Of a DNA stretch of 64,000 nucleotides, positions 10,613 to 62,742 are shown one piece after another (position 1 is the first letter of the stretch; each line of letters begins with the position of its first letter). Both the position numbers and the translations under genes were made by a program. The notes beneath the pieces are model-generated. The model saw only the letters and a program-made list of their open reading frames with translations, was not told the origin of the DNA and did no database searches. The DNA is from Margaritifera margaritifera (Eukaryota; Mollusca; Bivalvia; Unionida; Margaritiferidae), in NCBI GenBank assembly GCA_029931535.1, contig JAQPZY010001190.1:827001-891000 (forward strand). The letters run 5' to 3'.

Positions 10613-10745
10613 CCATATATACTCGTGTATAATCTGGGTCCAAATGCAAACAACAAAGACCCTGATTTGCCAGCGCATTATGCGATGGCAGATCTGGGTC
10701 TATGCAGTTTGCAGTTGGTATTGGCTTATACATGAGTATATACGG
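10613..10745 (-). mobile_element. 217-bp MITE family, 133-bp short form
   Basis: Flanked by TA on both sides. Ends read CCATATATACTCGTGTATAA and its complement ending TATATACGG. Relative to full-length copies, 84 bp between the two internal hairpins is missing. The left arm of one hairpin (AAAGACCCTGATTTGCC) is joined to the right arm of the other (GGCAGATCTGGGTCTATGC). Confidence 0.9.
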
Positions 10746-12062: not shown

Positions 12063-12243
12063 AAAACTGCATATATCCTGATCTGACATCATGCAGTGTA
12101 CCAGCAGATCTGGGTCTATGCAGTTTTGTTAAATTAATCAATCGTACAAAGAACATAGACCCTAATCTGCCAGCGCATTATTTCATGGGAGATCAGGGTC
12201 AGTGTTTTTGCAGTTGATTCTGACATACACGCAAGATATATGG
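12063..12243 (+). mobile_element. 217-bp MITE family, left-truncated copy
   Basis: Begins inside the first hairpin (AACTGCATATATCC) and keeps both hairpins in degraded form (GCAGATCTGGGTCTATGCAG, GATCAGGGTC). It ends at a decayed right terminus, ATATATGG, followed by TA. The left terminal repeat is absent. Confidence 0.8.
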
Positions 12244-15649: not shown

Positions 15650-16276
15650 AAGATATTAAAGTTATAATGAACTGATAAGAGATTGTGAGATCTTTTTTTT
15701 ATCAGCAGTCTTATTATATAAGATATTAAAGTTATAATGAACTGATAAGAGATTGTGAGATCTTTTTTTTATCAGCAGTCTTATTATATAAGATATTAAA
15801 GTTAAAATAAATTGATAAGTGATTTTGAGATATTTTTTTTGGCAGCAGTCTTATTATATAAGATATTAAAGTTATAATAAATTGATAAGAGATTTTGAGA
15901 TCTTTTTTTAGCAGCAGTCTTATTATATAAGATATTAAAGTTATAATAAATTGATAAGAGATTGTGAGATCTTTTTTTAGCAGCAGTCTTATTATATAAG
16001 ATATTAAAGTTAAAATAAATTGATAAGAGATTGTGAGATCTTTTTTTAGCAGCAGTCTTATTATATAAGATATTAAAGTTATAATAAATTGATAAGAGAT
16101 TGTGAGATCTTTTTTTATCAGCAGTCTTATTATATAAGATATTAAAGTTATAATAAATTGATAAGAGATTGTGAGATTTTTTTTAGCAGCAGTCTTATTA
16201 TATAAGATATTAAAGTTATAATAAATTGATAAGAGATTTTGAGATCTTTTTTTAGCAGCAGTCTTATTATATAAGT
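15650..16276. repeat. 68-70 bp satellite array, 9 copies
   Basis: Unit anchors (GTTATAATAA or variants) start near 15661, 15731, 15801, 15871, 15940, 16009, 16078, 16147 and 16215. The spacings are 70, 70, 70, 69, 69, 69, 69 and 68 bp. Each unit carries GATAAGAGATTGTGAGATC, a T tract of variable length and GCAGCAGTCTTATTATATAA. The first two units are identical over their whole length, and the period drift is due to the T tract. Confidence 0.95.
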
Positions 16277-16378: not shown

Positions 16379-16598
16379 CCGTACACATACCATTAATATT
16401 CGTGTACAAGTTAGATCCAATTGCAAACTGCATAAACCCAGATCTACAATCACATAATGTGCCAGCTGATCTGGGTCTATTCAGTCTATTAGGAGTAATC
16501 AGTAGAACAAACAACTAGATCCAGATAATAATGCACTGGCAGATCAAGGTCTATGTTATTTGCAGTTGGACCTGACTTATTAGTAGGTATATATACTT
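16379..16598 (+). mobile_element. 217-bp MITE family, old diverged copy
   Basis: Both hairpin regions are recognisable (CATAAACCCAGATCT...GATCTGGGTCTATTC and a degraded second one). So are the linker AATCAGTAGAACAAACAAC and a right end, GTATATATACTTG. Substitutions and a small insertion at the left end make it one of the oldest copies. Confidence 0.8.
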
Positions 16599-19909: not shown

Positions 19910-20125
19910 CTGTCTATACTTGCGTATAAGCCGATACCAACTGCAAAATGCATAGACCCAGATCTGCCATCGCATAATGTGCCGGCAGATCTGTGTCTAT
20001 GCACTTTGTAAGGACTTATAAATCGAACAAACAACATAGATCTGATCTGCCGGCGGATTATGCAACGGCAGATCAGGGTCTATGTTGTTTGCATTTGGAC
20101 CCAGCATATACACGAGAATATACAG
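19910..20125 (+). mobile_element. 217-bp MITE family, full-length copy (216 bp)
   Basis: TA flanks. Ends are CTGTCTATACTTGCGTATAA and its diverged complement ending ATATACAG. Hairpin 1 (CATAGACCCAGATCTGCC and complement), the linker and hairpin 2 (CATAGATCTGATCTGCC and complement) are all present. Confidence 0.92.
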
Positions 20126-22980: not shown

Positions 22981-23630
22981 TAGATAATATGTGACAAAAA
23001 ATATCTGCAATCGGCTGTCCTACAAAAAATTACTAGCAGAACAAGTTCGAAAGATGGAGATGTCGGTGGAGCTGCTGTTGCAACACCGCACAACACCATC
23101 TCCAGGCAGTTACCAAATACAGTCTCCATCTTTACTACAGAAGTTACAGCCATATTTAAATCAATGCACTATATTGAAACCTCTCAAAAAACTAATTTCA
23201 GTAGCTTTTTGGATTCATTTTCCACACTGAAAACCTTTCAAAAAACTAATTTCAGTAGCTTTTTGGATTCATTTTCCACACTGAAAACCTTTCAAAAAAC
23301 TAATTTCAGTAGCTTTTTGGATTCATTTTCCACACTGAAAACCTTTCAAAAAACTAATTTCAGTAGCTTTTTGGATTCATTTTCCACACTGAAAACCTCT
23401 CAAAAAACTAATTTCAGTAGCTTTTTGGATTCATTTTCCACACTGAAAACCTTTCAAAACCTTAAATTTGACAATCCCTTAATATCCCAGGTCTTAAGCT
23501 TGTACAGTCTGGAAAAAGTATACTGTACTGTTGGCCATACAGTCACACAGGTATTAAGAGTTTTGAGAGAGCACATAAAGCAGTGCAGCAGGATCCTGTT
23601 TTGGAATGGAATATCCCATATGGGGATTTT
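22981..23630 (+). repeat. Dispersed repeat related to 58440-58620
   Basis: The stretch around the 54-bp array shares AAACCTTTCAAAA, TTTTGGATTC, CCACACTGAA, CTTAATATCCCAG and a GAAAAAGT...TACTG end with 58470-58625. The copy at 58 kb has one version of the segment that is amplified here. Confidence 0.6.
23177..23450. repeat. 54-bp tandem repeat, 5 near-identical copies
   Basis: Units of 54 bp containing AAACTAATTTCAGTAGCTTT and TTGGATTCATTTTCCACACT are identical except for CTCTC/CTTTC at one position. Because 54 is a multiple of three, the array stays open as an 18-residue repeat, but nothing indicates that it is translated. Confidence 0.95.
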
Positions 23631-23631
23631 A

Positions 23632-23764
23632 CTGTATCTACTCACATATAATCAGGGTCCAAATGAAGACAACATAGACCCGGATCTGCTGGCGCATTAT
23701 GCGACGGCAGATCTGGGTCTCTGCAGTTTGCAGTTGGTATCGGCTTATATGTGAGTATAGACGG
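23632..23764 (-). mobile_element. 217-bp MITE family, 133-bp short form
   Basis: TA flanks, ends CTGTATCTACTCACATATAA and complement. It has the same length and apparently the same internal deletion as the copy at 10613-10745. One chimeric hairpin remains (CATAGACCCGGATCTGC paired with GCAGATCTGGGTCTCTG). Confidence 0.92.
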
Positions 23765-27318: not shown

Positions 27319-27506
27319 CCATATGTACTCGCATATAAGCCGATACCAACTGCAAACTGCATAGACCCAGATTGGTCTATGCAGTTTGTAAGGACTAATC
27401 AGTAGAACAAACAACGTTGACCCTGACCTGCCGGCGCATGATGCAATGGCAGATCAGGGTCTGTGTTGTTTGCATTTGGACCCGGAGCATACGTGAGTAT
27501 ATACGG
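27319..27506 (+). mobile_element. 217-bp MITE family, hairpin-1 loop deleted (188 bp)
   Basis: TA flanks, ends CCATATGTACTCGCATATAA and complement. Hairpin 1 is reduced to CATAGACCCAGATTGGTCTA, having lost its loop and most of its distal stem. Hairpin 2 is intact. Confidence 0.92.
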
Positions 27507-27796: not shown

Positions 27797-28013
27797 CCGT
27801 ATATACTCATGTATATACCGATACCAACTGCAAACTGCATAGACCCAGATCTGCTGTCGCATAATGCGCTAGCAGATCTGGGTCTATGCAGTTTGTAAGG
27901 ATTAATCAGTAGAACAAACAACATAGACCCTGATCTGCCAGCGTATTATGCGACGGCAGATCAGGGTCTATGTTGTTTGCATTTGGACTCGGATTATATG
28001 CAAGTACTAACGG
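27797..28013 (+). mobile_element. 217-bp MITE family, full length
   Basis: TA flanks. Left end CCGTATATACTCATGTATAT; right end ...AGTACTAACGG. Both hairpins are nearly perfect: CATAGACCCAGATCTGC and complement, CATAGACCCTGATCTGCC and complement. It lies only 290 bp from the preceding copy, in the same orientation. Confidence 0.95.
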
Positions 28014-29059: not shown

Positions 29060-29276
29060 CCATCTATACTCGCTTATAAGTCGAGTCCAACTGCAAACAA
29101 CATATATCCTGATCGGCCATTGCATAATGTGCCAAAAGATCAGGGTCTGTGTTGTTTGTACTACTGATTGCTCCTAACAAACTGCATAGACTTAGGTCGG
29201 TCAGTGTATTATGCATTGGCAGATCTGGGTCTGTGCAGTTTGCAGTTGGACTGGACTTATAAATGAGTATATATAG
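29060..29276 (-). mobile_element. 217-bp MITE family, full length but diverged
   Basis: TA flanks and exactly 217 bp. The TGTTGTT-type hairpin comes first on the + strand and the CTGCATAGAC-type second, so the element is reversed relative to most copies. Substitutions are frequent (for example GATCGGCCATTGCATAATG). Confidence 0.92.
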
Positions 29277-30168: not shown

Positions 30169-30385
30169 CTGTATATACTTGCGTATAAGCTAATACGAAC
30201 TGCAAACTCCATAGATCCAGATCTGCCATCGCATAATGCGCCGGTAGATCTGGGTCTATGCAGTTTGTAAGGACTAATCAGTAGAACAAACAACATAGAC
30301 CCTGATCTGCCGGTGCATTATGCAATGGCAGATCAGGGTCTATGTTGTTTGCATTTGGATACAGATTATACGCTAGTATATACAG
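30169..30385 (+). mobile_element. 217-bp MITE family, full length
   Basis: TA flanks, ends CTGTATATACTTGCGTATAA and complement, both hairpins well conserved (CATAGATCCAGATCTGCC and CATAGACCCTGATCTGCC with their complements). Confidence 0.95.
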
Positions 30386-35819: not shown

Positions 35820-35852
35820 TGTTGGTATTGGATTATACACGAGTATATACGG
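35820..35852 (+). mobile_element. 217-bp MITE family, solo right end
   Basis: GTTGGTATTGGATTATACAC and GAGTATATACGG followed by TA match the terminus of the MITE. The rest of the element is missing. Confidence 0.75.
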
Positions 35853-36525: not shown

Positions 36526-36736
36526 CAGTATATACTCGCGTAAGCCGATACCAACTGCAAACTGCATAGACCCAGATCTGCCATCACATAATGCGCTGGC
36601 AGATCTGGGTCTATGCAGTTTGTAAGGACTAATCAGTAGAACAAACAACATAGAGCCTGATCTGCCGGTGCATTATGCGATGGCAGATCAGGGTCTATTT
36701 TGTATCTGGACCTGGCATATATGCGAGTATTTACGG
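36526..36736 (+). mobile_element. 217-bp MITE family, near full length (211 bp)
   Basis: TA flanks. Hairpin 1 is perfect apart from single changes. Hairpin 2 has lost a few bases of its right arm (GATCAGGGTCTATTTTGTAT). Confidence 0.93.
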
Positions 36737-37216: not shown

Positions 37217-37406
37217 CCGTATATACTCGAGTATAAGCCGATAGAAACTGCAAACTGCATAGACCCAGATCTGCCATTGCATAATGCGCCGGCAGATCTT
37301 GGTCTATGCAGTTTGTAAGGACTAATCAGTAGAACAAACAGCATAGATCTTGATCTGGGTCAATGCAGTTTGCAGTTGGTATCGGCTTATATGCGAGTAT
37401 ATACGG
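37217..37406 (+). mobile_element. 217-bp MITE family, symmetrised copy (190 bp)
   Basis: TA flanks. Both ends are of the same half-type: the left reads GCCGATAGAAACTGCAAACT and the right is the complement of GCCGATACCAACTGCAAACT. The left arm of hairpin 2 is joined at a GATCTG motif to an inverted copy of the left terminus. This gives terminal inverted repeats of about 55 bp. Confidence 0.9.
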
Positions 37407-40539: not shown

Positions 40540-42540
40540 GAGAGCAATGTTGGGACAGTCTGTGGGGAAAGTGTGGCCACAAGAAGGGCCCTTGGGACAC
40601 TCACCCAGACTGTCTCACATATTCAAAGTACACACATAAGAATCATTGTACTTTTTGCACAGTATGGATTAATGAAACCTGGAATCTAGCCGATTCCAAA
40701 TGTGCTTATAGAGGGCGGATGAAACATCAGTCCCCCTCATCATCAGATTTTCAGGTTTTTCTCTTGCAGAGCCCCAGGGAGCCCAATGTAAGACAACTAG
40801 TTCTTCAATCTGGAAGAACACTCCTGGGTCTCAGGAGCTTATGGAACCAGTCTCTTCGGAAACAGGCAAGGCCCCTCCTGTAGGAGGGAATGAATGTTCA
40901 AGGAGTAGATCGCCTCCTCCGAAAGGGAGAAGTCGAACACTGATCATGTTCACAGCATTGTGTTGCTGCCTTCCGCGAAGAAGGAAGTGCACCACTTGTC
41001 TCACTCCCTGGTTAGTGTGTCGCACCCTCCCATGAGGGAGGAGCTGCACCTTACTCAACACTTCCGGATAATGTGTCGCACCATCCCGAATAGGAGGAGC
41101 AGCACCGCACCTTGATGAGTGATGAAGATGAACTAGGCTCTGACATATCTATGTCACCTGACCAGTCACTGACCAGTCAGTTCATCAAAGTGACTGGTCA
41201 ATTATAGTGACCGGTCACTGGTAAGTTTGTCCTGGTGACTGGTTAGATCATATTGGCCACTGGTCATCTCATGCTGGTCGGCGTCTTTCCACCAGTCATT
41301 ACTCATAGGCCTCGTGTTATGGGGATAGGGATCAGACTGAGTTTCCCCCTCTCCCCACTCTACCATCACACTCTGTACTAGATTGGGAGTCTGCCCAACA
41401 GGTCCAGACTAAGGAAGGGGATCAGATCGGTATACTCCCACCCCTTTCCTATTACCCCATTGAATCCGTATGGGATGTGGGACCCTCCACCTCTGGGTAA
41501 TTGGTCCCATATGCACCCTTGGGGTACTGAACCCTGGACCCAGAGTAGAGGTGCTGCCGTTGCTCATGTCTTGCGATCACATCCTTGCCAGGTGGCATCC
41601 ACCAGAAAGGCTGGAGGCATAATATCATCCAGGAAAGACAAGCCATCTCATCTTCCTCCTAGAACTTCTAGCACACATAGGGCCCCTACTCACCATGATG
41701 AGATACAGGAAATGGTGCAGAGTGCTCCTGTGTCACTTCCACTGAAGGACATAGTGATGCCCAGCCACTCGCCTGGTCGGAGTGCACTAGATGATGATAT
41801 CCTCATTGACTCCAATGAGTTCAAGGTAGAAACAGTTCGTTTGATGCCTCCTATGAAGCCCACCAGCTCCTGTCAGTTTGATGAGGAGGAGGAGTTCTGG
41901 TTGTTTGATAAGGTGGTAAATGAAGTTTACCACCACTTACCCATGGACTTGTGCCCGAAACCATCTGGTACACAGACCAAGAAGATCCTTTCCATCTTGG
42001 AAAAGATCTGTGGGACCCAACCACATCTCCTGCTTCTTCCTCATTCCTCCACAATTGAGGAAATATCACAGAGATTTTCCACAGGCAAAGACATCACTTG
42101 GCGATGCAGAGGGTGGTACGTTCCACCCTCTACCTTGAGACTTATGATCTCTGCGTCGAGTTACCTGGTACATTCCCCGAAAGTGTCCCAATAAACCTCC
42201 CCAGTTGGATGCAGGTGCATCCCAAGTTGGTATCTCAACTGCAACCTGGGCATGCCTCCCATTAAAATAATTGAAGCCATAGAACAGAAAGCCTGGCTTT
42301 TGGTCGTCATAGTCTCTCATGCTGACCTCTTTTCAGCTACTTCATTTAGTATGCTGAAGGAGGCCACACTGAATCCAGCTGCATTACGATGCATGCTGGA
42401 AGCTGTGGCCAAGACATCCTGGCAGGCACTTTCTGTTGCAATGGCTTTATTGGTGGAACTTCTGCATATCCGCCATGATGTTGCGCTGGACTCCTCGAGA
42501 GTCTTACTTAACCACAGTAGAAACCTTCTAAGGGCTGCTC
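40540..42540 (+). pseudogene. DIRS gag-like ORF, disrupted
   Basis: The longest surviving frame is 41460-42194 (244 codons), with an acidic block (DEEEEFWLFDKVV) followed by NEVYHHLPMDLCPKP, as in DIRS gag proteins. The frame continues after a break at 42252 with a helical, Ala/Leu-rich segment (about 42350-42540, LEAVAKTSWQALSVAMALLV). The 5' part (40540-41460) is broken into several frames and includes a short repeat of TGACCAGTCAC motifs and their complements at 41157-41230. Gag packages the RNA. Homology is by style and position, so the exact limits are uncertain. Confidence 0.65.
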
Positions 42541-42584
42541 TGTTAGAAGCCAAGAACCTCTTCAAAAATACCTCCAGTTTTGTT

Positions 42585-42930
42585 TCGACCAGGAAGTTTT
42601 TCAATTCCAGGTTCTGCCATTTGGAATTGCTTTCACACCTAGAGTCTTCACCTGAGTTATGGGAGTAGTAGCATCTTACCTCCAATTACTGAAAACCCAG
42701 ATTCTCCAGTATTTCGATGACTGGTTAATCCACAATGTTCAGGTCCTGTCCCTCCATCAGGATCTGCTCCATTGTTGGTCCACAGGAACTTGGTTGGGTC
42801 TCTTAACCAACTTTAAAAAGTTAGAGCTCATTCCATCTCAGGACTTGGTTTTACGTGGGAATGAACTTCCTCATGAACCAGAACTTAGTCTGGGTCCCAG
42901 GGGATTGCATTGATCGAATCCTGGCACTTC
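42585..42930 (+). pseudogene. DIRS reverse transcriptase fragment (copy 1)
   Basis: Gag sequence runs straight into an RT segment reading (in part) FQFQVLPFGIAFTPRVF, then the catalytic box YFDDWLIHN at 42710-42736, then GLLTNFKKLELIPSQD. The RT N-terminal motifs are missing, so an internal deletion fused gag to mid-RT near 42575-42590. The aspartates of the FDD box are intact, but the domain is incomplete. Confidence 0.85.
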
Positions 42931-43099
42931 TAGAGGCGCTATGAGCAAAAACATCATTGTCTGCTCACCTTTACCTATCCTTACAGGGAACCTTGAATGC
43001 CGCTGCCAATCAGGTTCCCTTAGGACATCTCCATATGCGCCCTCCACAGTTCTCGCAAGGTGGAAATCACACAGAGATTCTCTATCAGCTCCGATTCCT

Positions 43100-43640
43100 C
43101 TAAGACAAGATTTTCATCACCATTTATGCTGGTGGATGAATCAGGACAGATTTCTGACTGGGGTCCCCATGCATGCACCTGACCCCCACTCCTGTCTATT
43201 CGCCAACATGTCAGATTCCAATTGGGGCACTCATTTAGAGCCAGAGGGCATAATTCTTCAGGGTCAGGGTGAGAAGAAAAACGTATTAGCAGACAGTGTC
43301 CAGGACAGGCAAAGCAGTCCTCATGGAATGGTCTCTTCACCGCTCCATAACAGAGTCCCTTTTCTCACTGTGGGGAAAGCCTCTAGTGGACTTGTTTGCA
43401 ACTGGGCTCAACAACAGACTTCCCTTCAATGTTCCTTCAGTCCTGTACCAGAGAGCATGGGCAGTGGACGCTTTCAGCTTCCAGTGGCATCATTGGTTCA
43501 CATATGCCTTCCCACCGTTCCGACTGCTACCTCAAATTCTACAAAAGGTCAGAACTTCCACTGCTCACATCATTCTCATAGCCCCACTGTGGCCCCAATA
43601 ATCGTGGTTCAGTGATCTTCTAGACCTCTTGATAGGTCAA
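43100..43640 (+). pseudogene. DIRS RNase H domain (copy 1)
   Basis: The first catalytic strand reads LFANMSDSNWGTHL at 43196-43237. Copy 3 has LFADTSDSGWG, so the first aspartate has become Asn here (GAC to AAC). Downstream, after a frameshift, are NVLADSV, MEWSLHRSI, VDLFATGLNNRLP and AWAVDAFSFQWHHWFTYAFP, then HIILIAPLWPQ, the usual DIRS RNase H to recombinase connector. This domain removes RNA from the RNA:DNA hybrid. Confidence 0.82.
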
Positions 43641-43739
43641 CCGAGGTCTCTACCTCACAGGAGGGATCTTCTGTCGCAACATGGGATCCCTCCTACACAT
43701 TCTCCACCTTTACACTTGGCTCATCTCAGGTGATCTATC

Positions 43740-44770
43740 CACCAGAACTAGTTTTTGGGCCGGATTGCCAGTTGCATCATTCAGGCCTAGAGAGCTTCAA
43801 CATCCAAGTTCTATGATGCGAGGTGGAGAAAGTTCTGTGATTGGTGCAGTAGGAAACAAGTTGATCTTAGCTGTCCCTCCATAACTTCCATTGCTGATTT
43901 TGTTTTGTTCCTTTTCGAGAACAAAAGATGTTCAGTATCAACTATCAAGGGTTATAGAGCTGCCTTTTCCAATACAGTTAAATTCTCTCAGGGCTCAGCA
44001 ATTGGTTCTGACTCGCACCTTGCTGATCTCATCAAGTATTTTGAGCTGCAGAGACCAGTGTCCTGCTCTCACGCCAGATGGAATATATCTTGTGTTTTCT
44101 GGTCTTGAACCAAAAACCCCTATGAACCATTGAGTGAGGCTTCCTTTCAGGGATTCACATTCAAGATTGTGTTTTTACTTGCTTTATCATCTGTGAGAAA
44201 ACACAGCAAGATTCATGCATTGTCTGTTGACACTGGCTGTCTTCAGTTAATGGGAATTATGAGTCCGTTTCTCTCCTTTGTCAACTGGGATTTTTAGCCA
44301 AAGATCAGTTACCTTCGGGAGCTCTATTACCTGTTGAGTTTCCACTCTCAGTCAAATCTGTGCTGGAGATAATCAAGATAGGCTTTTATGCCCAGTTAGG
44401 GCACCATGTTTCTATCTTAATGCCTCGAAAGGGAAAAGGATACATAGGAAATGTCTTTTCCTTCCTCTTAAGGGCTCTGTTGATATTTCGGCTTCCACTG
44501 TCTCATGGTGGATTGTCACCACAAGCAAAGAGCTTATCAGTCCCTTACCGATAGAGACCTCTCTTTTATGAAACTAAAAGCCCATGAGGTTCAAGCCTTT
44601 GCAGCTTCATGGGCCTATCTAAATCATTCTTCCTTGGAGGACGTCATGAAGTCAGCATTTTGGCAATCCCATACTACCTTCTCCTTCTACCTCCACTCGT
44701 TATTATACAACAAAGCACAGGCATTTGCAGGAGAACATGTGTCCCAGAGGGACACCAACATTCTGTAAGT
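43740..44770 (+). pseudogene. DIRS tyrosine recombinase (copy 1)
   Basis: Core-binding part SVSTIKGYRAAFSNTVKF near 43930-43985. First arginine block LSSVRKHSKIHALS near 44185-44225. The second block HEVQAFAASWAYLNH has CAA (Gln) at 44592-44594 where the family has Arg (HxxR). The final block TTFSFYLHSLL keeps the Tyr (TAC). Several frame changes are present. Loss of the HxxR arginine is expected to abolish strand cleavage. Confidence 0.85.
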
Positions 44771-44844: not shown

Positions 44845-44995
44845 CACATAACTGGCAAATTCAGCTACGCAATAGCAACGGGTAAGTTATTGCTGCTATT
44901 AAAATGTAGTTTTTTTTGGGGGGGGGGGGGTAAAACTAATTTTAATTATGCAATACTTACCCATCGCTATTGCTGAATGCCCTCCTACCACCCTG
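44845..44995. repeat. DIRS copy 1 internal complementary region
   Basis: 44851-44905 (CTACGCAATAGCAACGGGTA and on) is the reverse complement of the outer left end near 39703-39760. 44935-44990 (TTAATTATGCAATACTTACC) is the reverse complement of the outer right end near 45165-45215. The two halves meet at a T/G homopolymer (TTTTTTTT then about 12 G). Confidence 0.88.
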
Positions 44996-45004
44996 CTCTG
45001 ATGT

Positions 45005-45222
45005 CTTGGTGTAAACTTCGTCTATGAAAAAGATGACTGTTCTGCACATGTGCATGCATGGTGCATGAGTGGACCATGTCTTACTGACAATTCGTCACTG
45101 TGGAAGGATGTATTCACATCAAACGAACAAGGTTTTTTGACATGAAAAAGTAAAAGCTATGCAATATCAACAGGTAAGTATTGCATAGTTAAAATTAGTT
45201 TTACCCCCCACAAAAAACTACA
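45005..45222 (+). repeat. DIRS copy 1 right inverted terminal repeat
   Basis: Reverse complement of 39703-39893 over about 165 bp, including GGAAGGATGTATTCACATCA and AAAAAGTAAAAGCTATGCAA. It ends in TTTTACCCCCCACAAAAAAC, which mirrors the homopolymer junction in the internal complementary region. Confidence 0.88.
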
Positions 45223-46205: not shown

Positions 46206-46422
46206 CCATATATACTCGCGTATAATCCGATACCAACTGTAAACTGCATAGACCCAGATATGCCGTCACATAATGCGCCAGCAGATCTGGGTCTATGTAG
46301 TTTGTAAGGATTAATCAGTAGAACAAACAACATAAACCCTGATCTGCCAGCGCATTATGCAGTGGCAGATCAGGGTCTATGTTGTTTGCATTTGGACCCA
46401 GATTATATGCGAGTATATACGG
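46206..46422 (+). mobile_element. 217-bp MITE family, full length
   Basis: TA flanks, ends CCATATATACTCGCGTATAA and complement ending GAGTATATACGG. Both hairpins are nearly perfect. It sits directly after the low-copy repeat. Confidence 0.95.
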
Positions 46423-48789: not shown

Positions 48790-49599
48790 GCCAGGACTTT
48801 TCTTGACAACGCAATGGGTGGTCTAGTCCCCCCCCCCCTCGCCACATGAGACCCTTGGTCTCTGCATCAAGCCATAAGGTTCATATCCATTCCTGGCCAA
48901 TTAAATCTCCCACTTTGGATACCAAAGTGACTCAAGTATGTATTTCCACGGGGACCTGGGCCTGCCTCCCAGTTTAAACACTGGAAACTTTAGGAAAAAA
49001 GGTCAGGTCACTAGTAGCCTTAGCCTAGCATGCCAACCACTTTTTAGCAGTGTTGTTCAGCCTGCTAAAGAGGAAACTGTGTCATCATTTGCCCTTCATC
49101 AGTTGTTGATAGTAGTTTGAAAACATCTTGTCATGTGTTATTGTTGACCATGCCTTATCAGCAGAGCTTCTCCACTTCCGTAGGGATGTTGCTATGGACA
49201 CATCCAAGGTCTTACTAGAGCACAGTAAGAACTTTATGAGGCCTGCTCCCCTGGAAGCAGAGACTCTCTTCAAGGGCTTATCCTCTTCTTGGCTTCTCAG
49301 TATCTCAGAGATCAGCAACACCAGTCCTTTGCATCTGTTCGTGACCCATCGAACCGGCCAAGAAGCGAAATCATCCTGACTGACCACAGGGTCCATTGGT
49401 GAATTTCTTTAAAGCCATGCAGCCCAATTCAAAACAACACCCAAATTTTAGAACTCCCTTTCAGTAGTTGGGCCCCAGATGGGCACGTTACAAAGGCCCA
49501 GGGAGGAAGTTGGCGGGCCCTTCTGTCTGTCCTAAGGACAAGGGTGGGCAGCCCTAGAACTTGCTCCCTCTCCTGCAGAGTGTTCCTCTTCCGTTGGTT

Positions 49600-50080
49600 C
49601 CTGTAGGTGCCAGGCTAAGCCTCATTTCAGGGACTTGGTCTGGCATAATGGTTGATGGCTGGGTCCTTTCAATCATAAAGGTGGATACCGGCTTCAGTTT
49701 CAGGATCTTCCTTCTCTAGTTAGGTCCCCCATGTTCTTCCACGAGTTGAATCTGGTGCAATTAAGGAAGAGGTGCACAACCCTTCTTCAAAAGGGTGCAG
49801 TAGATAGGTTGTTCAGCCTATTTAAGGTCACTAGGTATCCCAATCTTCCATTTTCGATGATTGGTTGATCCACAATGGCTGGCTAGAGTCCCTCAGACTA
49901 GTTCTGTCTCGCTTTTGGTCCATAGTGACCAGACTGGGTCTTCTAACCAACCTAGAGAAATTGGAGCTTACTCCATCTCAAGATTTCATTTATGTGGGGT
50001 TGAATTTCCTCACAAAGAGGATTAACTGTGTCCCTCGGGACAGAGTAGTCAAGATCCTGTCCTGTTGGAGGTGCTGAGAG
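49600..50080 (+). pseudogene. DIRS reverse transcriptase, middle deleted (copy 3)
   Basis: The N-terminal part is present (LISGTWSGIMVDGWVLSII, then a KVDTGFSF stretch, 49620-49710), as is a KGAVDRLFSLFKVTR-like stretch near 49790-49830. The sequence then jumps to IFDDWLIHNG at 49850-49880 and GLLTNLEKLELTPSQD, so the part between the RT start and the FDD box is missing. This is roughly the reverse of copy 1, which lacks the N-terminal part and keeps the segment just before FDD. Confidence 0.82.
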
Positions 50081-50990
50081 CAATGACCACGTTGTCGGCT
50101 TGTCCTTTTCTGTCTCTGCTGTGGACCTTGTACTCCACAACAGGCATGGTTCCTCTTGGCAGATGGTACTTGCACCCTCTCCATTTTCTCCTTTTGGTGA
50201 ACTGGAAACCACACAGGGATCATGTGAATGCACAGATTTCTTTAGGTGTGGATTTCCACCATCATCTGATTTGGTGGTCAAATTGGGGCCAGTTTCTGAC
50301 CAGAGTCCCCATACATGCCTCAGAACCCCAATTCTATCTGTTTGCAGACACATCAGATTCAGGGTGGGGCAATTATCTGGAGCTGAAAGGACTGATTCTT
50401 CAGGGTTCATTTTTCAAGAAGAATCTATCCTCTAAATCAACAATTTGGAAATGAGGGCAATGTTCTTAGCCCTCCAGGGGTGCATCAATAAAATAAGAGT
50501 TTTCCTCTGATGACACTTTGGTAGTTTCGTACCTCAGGAGACAAGGAGGCACACATGCCTCATCTGTCTGCATGGAGGTTTGGAACCTCCTTTGCTGGGT
50601 GCCTTGGAAGGCATTACCCTCTGAGCTAGCCTTATTTCTCGTAAAAAGATATTTTTGCAAACAGTCTGTCAAGGAAAGGGAAGATAGTCCTCATGGAATG
50701 ATTCCTACACCAATCCATTGCGGATTCCCAGTTCCAACTTTGGGGGACACCATTGGTGGACTTGTTGAAGGCTAAACAACAAGCTCCCCTTTTTTGTTTC
50801 CCCAGTGCCCATCCAGAGGACTTGGGCAGTGGATGCTTTCAGCCTGAAGTGGGATCGTACTGTTTGCGTAAGCCTTTCCATCCTTCAGGATCATCCCTCT
50901 GGTACTTCACAAGTAAGGAACTCCACTGCTCAGTTCATTTTGATAGCCTCTCTGTCCCCCAACTGATTGTGGTTAAACAATCTTTTCCTC
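50080..50990 (+). pseudogene. DIRS RNase H domain (copy 3)
   Basis: The frame 50065-50454 ends with FADTSDSGWGNYLELKG (50341 on), which keeps the first catalytic Asp lost in copy 1. Further blocks (TLGDTIGGLVE, a WAVDAFSL-like stretch near 50828, and FILIAS) are recognisable only in shifting frames. The sequence continues into the recombinase. Confidence 0.8.
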
Positions 50991-51109
50991 CGGCTGGTGG
51001 ACCATTCCAGGACATTATCCTGGAGGAGGAATCTCCTGTCACGGCACAGGGGCTCACTCCCACACAACATCCCCTAAATTCTCCACCTTTTTGCTTGGCT
51101 CATCTCAAA

Positions 51110-51985
51110 CAATCTCTCCACTAGAACTGGTTTTCGAACAAGTTGCCAACTTCATTATTTAGTCCAGGAGACGATCTGTGTCTAAGGTCTATGATGATAA
51201 GTGGAAAATCCTTGGGGATTGGTGCAGTAGGAAACGTGTCAATCCTAGCTGTTTTTCAGTGAGTGCATTGGCTGATTTTTTCTCTCTTCCTTTTGAAGAG
51301 AAACAATGCTTGGTTTCTACTATCAAGGACTATAGCCCTGTCCAACACACTTAAATTTTCTATAGGCCTGGCTATTTGGATGGACTCTTACTTAGCAGAC
51401 ATGCTCAGGTATTTTGAGCTTCCAAGTCCGGTGTCTTGCTCGCTATTGCCAAGATGGAATCACTCTTGCATCTTGCGGTATCTAACTAAAACTCCCTATG
51501 AATTTTTGGGCGAAGCTTTCTTCAAGAACCTTACCCTCAAGCCTGTTTTCTTGCTCTCATTAGCGTCTTTGCGATGATGGTGCAAGCTTCATGGCCTATC
51601 CATAGAGCTGGACTGTATAACGTTAAGTGGAATTATGAGTAGACTTCTCTCTTTTACCAACCAGGTTTTTAGCAACACCAGCTTCCATCAGTTGTTCCAC
51701 TCCTGATTGAGATCCCCAGTCTCAGCTGTATCTGTACTGGTGATGATCCAGTTAGACTTTTATGCCCAGTTACGGCTTTATGCTTCTGGTTGCCAGCTTC
51801 TAAAGGGAGAAGAAAGGGGTAGGAAACATCTTTTCCTCACCCTTAAGGGTTCGGCTGATCTTTCAGCTTCCACCAATTCAAGGTGGATTGCATATACTAT
51901 CAGGAGAACTTATCACTCTCTTCCTGAGAGGGATCTTTCATTCATGAAATTAAAGCGCATGAGGTTCAAGCCAATTCAAACCTCC
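51110..51985 (+). pseudogene. DIRS tyrosine recombinase (copy 3)
   Basis: Core-binding region SLVSTIKDYSPVQHT-like near 51300-51350. The first arginine block reads LASLR followed by TGA and WCKLHGLS near 51560-51600, so it is broken where copy 2 has RQRSELHALS. The second block reads HEVQA at 51958-51972 with CAA (Gln) at 51967-51969 for the family Arg. The copy ends shortly after, before the Tyr block. Confidence 0.82.
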
Positions 51986-52069
51986 AGTCTTCATGATTAA
52001 GTTTTTAATCCACTGGCACACTGGAGCAGCAAACTTCTAGAATGCACTGGCCGGAACTAAATTTCAATT

Positions 52070-53596: not shown

Positions 53597-53955
53597 AGAT
53601 GTTCTGTTAAGTGACAATAGGATATTATAGCCTGTACTTCACAAATTACTGTATATACTCGCGTATAATCTCATATCAACTGCAAACTGCATGGACTCAG
53701 ATATGCCATCGCATAATGCGCTGGCAGATCTGGGTCTATGCAGTTTGTATGGACTCATCAGTAGAACAAACAACATAGATCCTGATCTGCCGGCACATAA
53801 TGCGCCGGCAGATCAGGGTCTATGTTGTTTGCATTTGGACCCGGGTTATACGTGAGTATATACAGTAAATTTGAAAAGGTCAAACAGATGTTCTGTTAAG
53901 TGATAATAGGGTATTATAGCCTTTACTTCACAAATTAAATTTGAAAAGGTCAAAT
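53597..53955. repeat. Short direct duplication, one copy split by a MITE
   Basis: The sequence ACAGATGTTCTGTTAAGTGA through CACAAATTAAATTTGAAAAG occurs twice. The first copy (53597-53647 plus 53866-53880) is interrupted by a MITE. The second (53882-53950) is continuous. Confidence 0.93.
53649..53865 (+). mobile_element. 217-bp MITE family, full length, with empty site next to it
   Basis: Left end CTGTATATACTCGCGTATAA, right end GAGTATATACAG, flanked by TA at 53647-53648 and 53866-53867. The uninterrupted duplicate downstream reads CAAATTAAATTTG at the same site, so the element ends are defined exactly and the target duplication is TA. Both hairpins are conserved. Confidence 0.97.
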
Positions 53956-58625: not shown

Positions 58626-58732
58626 TGCCTAATCGGTAGAATAAACAACATAGACCCTGATCTGCCGGCGCATTATGCAACAAGGTTTATGTTGTTTGCA
58701 TTTGGACCCACGTTATACACGAGTATATACGG
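58626..58732 (+). mobile_element. 217-bp MITE family, right half only
   Basis: Keeps the linker (CCTAATCGGTAGAATAAACA), a hairpin 2 with part of its right arm lost (CATAGACCCTGATCTGCC then AAGGTTTATG) and the right end ACGAGTATATACGG followed by TA. Confidence 0.85.
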
Positions 58733-62316: not shown

Positions 62317-62742
62317 GTTTGCTGTATATAGTAATTTTGTTATATTTGTGTAAGTTTTCAGGGCTTGAAATAGATGTTAGTAAGCTAGCATTTTGCTAGT
62401 TACAATTCTGATATGCCAGTAAATTGCTCGCTTGAAAAAAAAGGAACTATTTTGTATTTATAATATGATATGTGCTACTGTAGTGGAAATTGAAAAAAGC
62501 CTGTTTCTATTTTAAAATATTAAACTATCGTTTGCTGTATATAGTAATTTTGTTATATTTGTGTAAGTTTTCAGGGCTTGAAATAGATGTTAGTAAGCTA
62601 GCATTTTGCTAGTTACAATTCTGATATGCCAGTAAATTGCTCGCTTGAAAAAAAAGGAACTATTTTGTATTTATAATATGAAATGTGCTACTGTAGTGGA
62701 AATTGAAAAAAGCCTGTTTTTATTTTAAAATATTAAACTATC
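62317..62742. repeat. 213-bp tandem duplication, 2 mismatches
   Basis: 62317-62529 and 62530-62742 differ at only two positions (GATATG/GAAATG and TTTCTA/TTTTTA). The unit covers 42 bp of flank plus the left half of the hAT-like MITE. Confidence 0.97.

Follow-up and report, generated by a model that had tools for sequence, protein, structure and literature searches.

The repeat at 53649-53865 of the window (the whole 64-kb stretch of DNA that was analysed, from a host assembly of 2.45 Gb in 1696 contigs) looks like a palindrome made of palindromes, and it raises the question whether such a structure is kept by selection for pairing in its copies, or whether the hairpins are passengers of a mobile element. 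An earlier note on this DNA had described it as a MITE that is an inverted dimer of hairpins, with changes in one arm of a stem matched on the other so that pairing is kept. The parts of the given copy are as follows.

53649..53865, plus strand: full-length two-hairpin MITE (the given copy), 217 bp
53647..53648, no strand: TA, left copy of the target duplication
53649..53668, plus strand: left terminal inverted repeat
53683..53747, plus strand: hairpin A
53748..53766, plus strand: spacer between the hairpins, 19 bp
53767..53831, plus strand: hairpin B
53846..53865, plus strand: right terminal inverted repeat
53866..53867, no strand: TA, right copy of the target duplication
53883..53954, plus strand: empty site (duplicate of the flanks without the insertion), matching the joined flanks at 69 of 72 bases

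The element is a MITE with a Tc1/mariner-type insertion, as its TA flanks and an empty site show. TA stands on each side of all 11 window copies that have both ends; among 37 other genome copies with placeable ends it is found on both sides in 31 and on one side in 6. When the flanks of the 53649 copy are joined with a single TA, 69 of 72 bases are identical to the adjacent duplicate, and insertion at TA with duplication of TA is characteristic of Tc1/mariner. The copies are short, non-coding and uniform in length (217 bp in five, 216 and 211 bp in two others), which is too short for a transposase gene. With TA on both sides, a near-identical empty site, a length of 217 bp and a high copy number, the claim that this is a MITE holds, and the five copies named for it (27797, 29060, 30169, 46206 and 53649) are all present and all 217 bp long. 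In the window, family members amount to 15 copies or fragments (2678 bases, 4.2% of the 64 kb), and besides the given copy they are the following.

10613..10745, minus strand: single-hairpin copy, 133 bp, A left arm plus B right arm
12064..12243, plus strand: degraded copy without left end, boundaries approximate
16390..16595, plus strand: degraded copy, boundaries approximate
19910..20125, plus strand: two-hairpin copy, 216 bp
23632..23764, minus strand: single-hairpin copy, 133 bp, A left arm plus B right arm
27319..27506, plus strand: two-hairpin copy, hairpin A partly deleted, 188 bp
27797..28013, plus strand: two-hairpin copy, 217 bp
29060..29276, minus strand: two-hairpin copy of the older subfamily, 217 bp
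30169..30385, plus strand: two-hairpin copy, 217 bp
35821..35852, minus strand: solo left end
36526..36736, plus strand: two-hairpin copy, 211 bp
37217..37406, plus strand: copy with hairpin B partly deleted and a right end of the left-end type, 190 bp
46206..46422, plus strand: two-hairpin copy, 217 bp
58629..58732, plus strand: right-hand part of a copy

A sample of twenty 10-kb stretches (200 kb), placed at round positions on large contigs already named by the best-match search, contained 8 copies, all within 4 of these stretches, and the reversed-sequence control had none. This gives a rough genome estimate of ~98,000 copies (Poisson range 42,000-193,000). The genome as a whole has 8283 exact stems of hairpin A, defined by 28 fixed bases, and 7144 of hairpin B, with 0 in the reversed controls. 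The family looks clustered in the genome. In viral collections the stem motif has 0 matches, and the 16 that it has in prokaryotic ones do not continue into the element; 11 viral matches to the end motif were set aside as chance, since only ~14-15 end bases match. No eukaryotic two-hairpin inverted-dimer MITE was described in the titles and abstract openings, mostly of non-subscription journals, that were searched, and among the papers listed by a literature text search with the end strings, none names a transposon in its title. The family may already be named in Repbase or Dfam. It is an ordinary kind of element with an uncommon dimer-of-palindromes design.

The window itself has a GC content of 36%, 28 tandem-repeat rows and, at 15 members in 64 kb as against 8 in 200 kb, a density of the family several times that of the sample. 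We take the DNA to be eukaryotic on account of the assembly size, the GC content and the tandem repeats. Minisatellites lie at 1280-1903 (38-bp unit), 15650-16275 (69), 23177-23459 (54) and 62317-62742 (213), and a separate pair of inverted arms of 49 nt, 90% complementary and 187 nt apart, at 44925-44973 and 45161-45209. A 190-codon frame at 803-1375 resembles, by eye, part of a LINE reverse transcriptase. Two decayed retroelement-like frame stretches (41382-44133 and 49116-52000) are presumably DIRS-like; of 8 pieces searched with Pfam, one has a match that we trust, to an integrase, which is weak and below the cut-off, and a protein search with one DIRS-like piece in collections without eukaryotes gave no match at E 0.001. 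Among the window frames of at least 90 codons outside 38-53 kb, no transposase was recognised by eye.

As regards what moves the MITE, a pogo/Tigger-type transposase supplied by another element is the most likely candidate because the ends are alike, which makes it probable, not firm. DDE_1 genes, which we take to be of the pogo/Tigger type, are abundant in the host genome: 150 places were scored of 2534 candidates, and the matches listed exceed the cut-off. Several dozen of the listed genes share one score, mostly with 597-aa open frames (for example C420:6693086-6693625), and this shared score and frame suggests a young burst of the DDE_1 transposon. In one 597-aa element the inverted ends read CAGTGGGACCCCGCTATAACCCG and are flanked by TA. 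An apparent end of a 545-aa element resembles them, and a third sequence that was read stopped short of the end. These elements resemble the MITE in their TA target and in the similar layout of their ends (CAGTGGGACCCCGCTATAACCCG as against CCGTATATACTCGCGTATAAGCCG in the MITE), and they differ from it in encoding a transposase (the 597-aa frame) and in having ends that are not the same. The alignment score of the 597-aa element's end with that of the MITE is reached by 7 of 5000 shuffles; the two are similar in layout, not identical, and the MITE is no deletion derivative of that pogo/Tigger element. Of the 27-base MITE end the genome has 169 exact occurrences (control 0), and a comparison of 100 listed ends of these 169 with the listed DDE_1 genes found no such gene near an end. 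Among these listed places no transposase linked to MITE ends was found. Two further loci may be mentioned: a TA-flanked piece of 1.53 kb (L059, 6813-8342), whose ends nearly match those of the MITE while its interior is different and shows no long frame, and C421:1259732-1260824, where two exact MITE ends, facing one another, delimit 1.09 kb; this may be a larger relative and is known from coordinates alone.

In the consensus, which is 217 bp in total, an end repeat of ~20 bp is followed by hairpin A (65 nt), a 19-bp spacer, hairpin B (65 nt) and the second end repeat. Each stem is 25 bp long instead of the about 23 bp first given, with an apex of 15 nt inside which 3-4 extra pairs are possible. 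The 53649 copy starts CTGTATATACTCG where the consensus has CCG, and the terminal inverted repeats, taken as the consensus ends of the main copies, are identical at 28 of 34 positions. The right half read in reverse complement does line up with the left half: in the five 217-bp window copies each half makes up one of two inverted arms, which are 102-108 nt long and 74-82% complementary and stand 17 nt apart. The dimer form stands as described; because each hairpin is itself nearly palindromic, it is only by the apex and flank sequence that the dimer can be called inverted and not direct, the B apex being the reverse complement of the A apex.

The predicted fold of the 53649 copy as DNA (-77.8 kcal/mol) consists of two hairpins and a terminal stem, and it is far more stable than that of its shuffles (-24.5 kcal/mol, sd 3; 0 of 200 fold as well; z -17.75). 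This agrees with the structure proposed for one strand, but the consensus RNA prefers a different one: a single 217-nt hairpin is predicted at -157.6 kcal/mol, as compared to -144.7 for two hairpins plus a terminal stem. The long RNA form is favoured in 6 of 7 near-full-length window copies (36526 being scored with its left end misaligned), and the 53649 copy is the exception, by a margin of 0.7 kcal/mol. Folded separately as RNA, hairpins A and B give -55.4 and -49.2 kcal/mol.

The few matched stem differences that had been noticed between the two hairpins are real. At 22 of 25 stem positions all four arms are the same, and at the other 3 (positions 6, 7 and 17) A differs from B with both arms changed, so that in the consensus each difference is matched on the opposite arm. 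Of the next three positions toward the apex, two follow outer versus inner arms, as expected of the global palindrome, and the third, at a CpG, is changed in one arm only. As the A/B pattern occurs in copies of both subfamilies, it probably dates from a common ancestral master.

Whether pairing is also maintained in the copies is a separate matter, for which the earlier note had proposed to look for an excess of compensatory over single-arm changes. The alignment used here had 54 rows, of which 3 badly degraded ones were removed to leave 51 copies; no row was given to the solo end, to the two monomers or to L028, which is the query. The 51 comprise 41 copies of the main subfamily and 10 rows of an older group with CAGTTGG beside the right end, among which 37217 is counted although it carries this mark only through its replaced end; the 30 genomic loci are the best matches to the query, which biases them to young copies. 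Over 48 stem pairs, we counted 179 single-arm changes, 2 Watson-Crick doubles (one of which belongs to 37217) and 1 broken double, that is, 3 doubles as against 5.3 expected if the arms are independent, and thus no compensatory excess in these 51 copies. A separate count on the long-hairpin structure gave 7 double changes, with 5.3 expected. A stem-breaking C to A at column 55 is common to 5 copies.

At one C-G pair of hairpin A followed genome-wide, 8283 stems are unchanged, 1096 have a single-arm change and 50 are compensated doubles where 36.3 were expected, which taken alone is above expectation (p=0.017). The control at non-partner sites gave 46 doubles with 38.6 expected (singles 1096 and 584), and paired and unpaired doubles at this one stem pair do not differ (p=0.48); a mild rise of both would fit copies of mixed age. 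The 12 window copies gave a mildly positive count, with 19 cells changed on both sides as compared to 13.3 in shuffles (reached by 15 of 500) and a covariation score reached by 25 of 500 shuffles; 8 of the 13 pairs concerned belong to the terminal stem, where CpG decay may turn C-G into T-A. For the tested sites and copies, pairing is not maintained after insertion, and the absence of a compensatory excess among copies points to neutral decay without selection on pairing. The claim that matched changes keep the pairing is thus true of the difference between the A and B consensus, but not of the copies, be it the 51 aligned or the one pair followed genome-wide.

The rate of change along the element gives a similar picture. 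With CpG columns set aside, the 41 main copies diverge by 2.2-3.2% in each of the arms, 3.0% in the spacer, 4.5-4.7% in the ends and 7.5-9.8% in the regions adjacent to the ends, while apex A stands at 1.7% and apex B at 6.2%. A separate count of CpG columns found a change in 24-30% of the cells, for the four parts in which CpG cells number 50 or more. The arms (2.7%) lie below the pooled ends, end-adjacent regions and spacer (5.5% per column) with p=0.086 by column, and when the test is made base by base, their lower divergence in the same 41 copies is significant for C, G and T. We read this gap as variation beside the ends and not as a constraint on the stems, given that the spacer diverges no more than the arms do. 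Conserved arms had been considered as a sign of stem constraint on the strength of the window copies (p=0.005 with 7 copies, 0.0002 with 12); the value is p=0.20 once shared variants are set aside, and in the 41 main copies the divergence of the arms is that of the spacer and falls short of that of the end regions, so that this idea was abandoned.

The number of hairpins and the identity of arms and ends are not fixed. The two 133-bp copies, which the earlier note does not mention, are the dimer minus 84 bp, which is the hairpin-to-hairpin distance, with the A left arm joined to the B right arm in a chimeric stem. Such chimeric stems occur 975 times genome-wide, and some of them sit 84 bp from another stem (as in C20) and hence are not monomers. 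A tandem array of the MITE hairpin unit lies at C45:605447-605741, where four hairpins that share one stem variant follow each other at intervals of exactly 84 bp. The right end of the 37217 copy has 3 mismatches in 50 to the family left end, as compared to 8 to the family right end and 5 to its own left end. A B-apex change in 53649 had appeared, among 12 copies, to be a conversion private to it; once more copies were aligned, two of these changes turned up also in L029, L030 and (in part) 16390 and others disappeared against the newer consensus, and the claim was dropped. As the variant is shared with L029 and L030, the B-apex change is weak evidence for recent arm copying.

Dimer, monomer and array are thus observed forms, from which we infer the following mechanism. 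Since the palindromes A and B are nearly the same, their four arms would allow DNA synthesis or recombination to jump from one to another. Such jumps could give both arms of a hairpin the same sequence, which is how the matched A/B differences most likely arose, in an ancestral master; they could also swap ends, and remove or add whole hairpins by 84 bp, giving the 217-bp dimer, the 133-bp monomer and the tandem array. Once inserted, the copies tested have decayed by ordinary point mutation, with strong loss of CpG. Template switching, reported in excerpts of three papers to make the arms of imperfect palindromes alike and to invert loops, and documented there for RNA genes, yeast coding genes and yeast reporters (PMC8794818, PMC8604942, PMC3820800), might be the process at work in the MITE family, and unequal recombination is an alternative source of the 84-bp steps. 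On the whole, we consider it rather likely that this is a Tc1/mariner-type MITE mobilised by a pogo/Tigger-type transposase, with hairpins that are passengers and decay neutrally, and with occasional arm copying or recombination and gain or loss of hairpins by 84 bp.

A first competitor is that the hairpins are under selection for pairing as small-RNA precursors, either miRNA-like or hairpin-siRNA-like. The predicted size and stability of the 65-nt hairpins do agree with the earlier suggestion that they are of pre-miRNA size, the matched A/B differences and the arms varying less than the end regions would be expected, and MADE1, a palindromic MITE derived from Hsmar1 and named in excerpts of PMC1784062 as the source of hsa-mir-548, is a precedent. 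Rfam gave nothing at cut-off in the 64-kb window, so that no family backs the suggestion; 9 sub-threshold matches lie around the 53649 copy, weak miRNA matches among them (best 39.3 bits as against a cut-off of 100). What makes this explanation quite improbable is that the compensatory excess is absent from the copies and the stem pair tested, that the stems vary as much as the spacer, that the consensus favours a single long hairpin and that single-hairpin copies with mismatched chimeric stems occur.

The hairpins might instead serve transposition, a role that has been suggested for the REPINs of bacteria: single strands could fold at the replication fork, for example, or the transposase could bind to the hairpins. 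Two inverted palindromic units between ends are indeed what REPINs, mobile inverted doublets with reported compensatory changes (PMC3116915, in excerpts), look like. The MITE lacks such an excess, however, its TA duplication and inverted ends indicate ordinary DDE cut-and-paste, and damaged or single-hairpin copies (27319, 37217, 10613 and 23632) are TA-flanked too, even though damage may postdate insertion, and hence we hold a role in transposition to be very doubtful. One could also turn the order of events around, taking the 133-bp form as ancestral and the dimer as the product of an 84-bp duplication. Single-hairpin copies do have both ends and TA on each side, and hairpin units are able to multiply at 84-bp steps. 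Yet the monomer stem consists of an A arm and a B arm, the already diverged outer arms of the dimer; plain duplication would not yield a B apex that is the reverse complement of the A apex; and 8283 A and 7144 B stems far exceed the 975 chimeric ones. There is thus little to recommend a monomer-first origin, and we keep to the reading of passenger hairpins with occasional exchange between arms.

A bolder version, which we regard as unlikely, is that the nested palindrome is self-perpetuating, that is, that arm copying re-matches the hairpins of the master and also yields monomers, dimers and 84-bp satellites, without selection on each copy. If true, a transposon family would keep and multiply its own secondary structure by means of replication errors. 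In any case, the 8283 exact A and 7144 exact B stems are natural palindromes in which arm re-matching, swapping and deletion can be measured against point mutation. Moreover, matched differences between two consensus hairpins are no proof of selection for RNA structure, as the tested copies show none.

Among known systems, MADE1 is alike in being a tiny MITE of the mariner type, close to a single palindrome, whose RNA would fold as a stable hairpin; according to excerpts of PMC1784062 it is 80 bp long with one hairpin made from its own ends, whereas the element described here is 217 bp with two internal hairpins apart from the ends. REPINs share the mobile inverted pair of short palindromic units, but those in the excerpted text of PMC3116915 are bacterial, depend on RAYT tyrosine transposases and commonly show compensatory changes, while the present family is eukaryotic, inserts at TA and has no such excess. 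The MITE-related satellite DNAs of bivalves (PMC11136912 and PMC5139131) are comparable, as far as their description goes, in that transposon units become tandem arrays, and one 84-bp hairpin array was seen here. Finally, the template-switch events in excerpts of PMC8794818, PMC8604942 and PMC3820800, with matched quasi-palindrome arms and inverted loops, are single events, and what we invoke here would be the same process in a transposon family.
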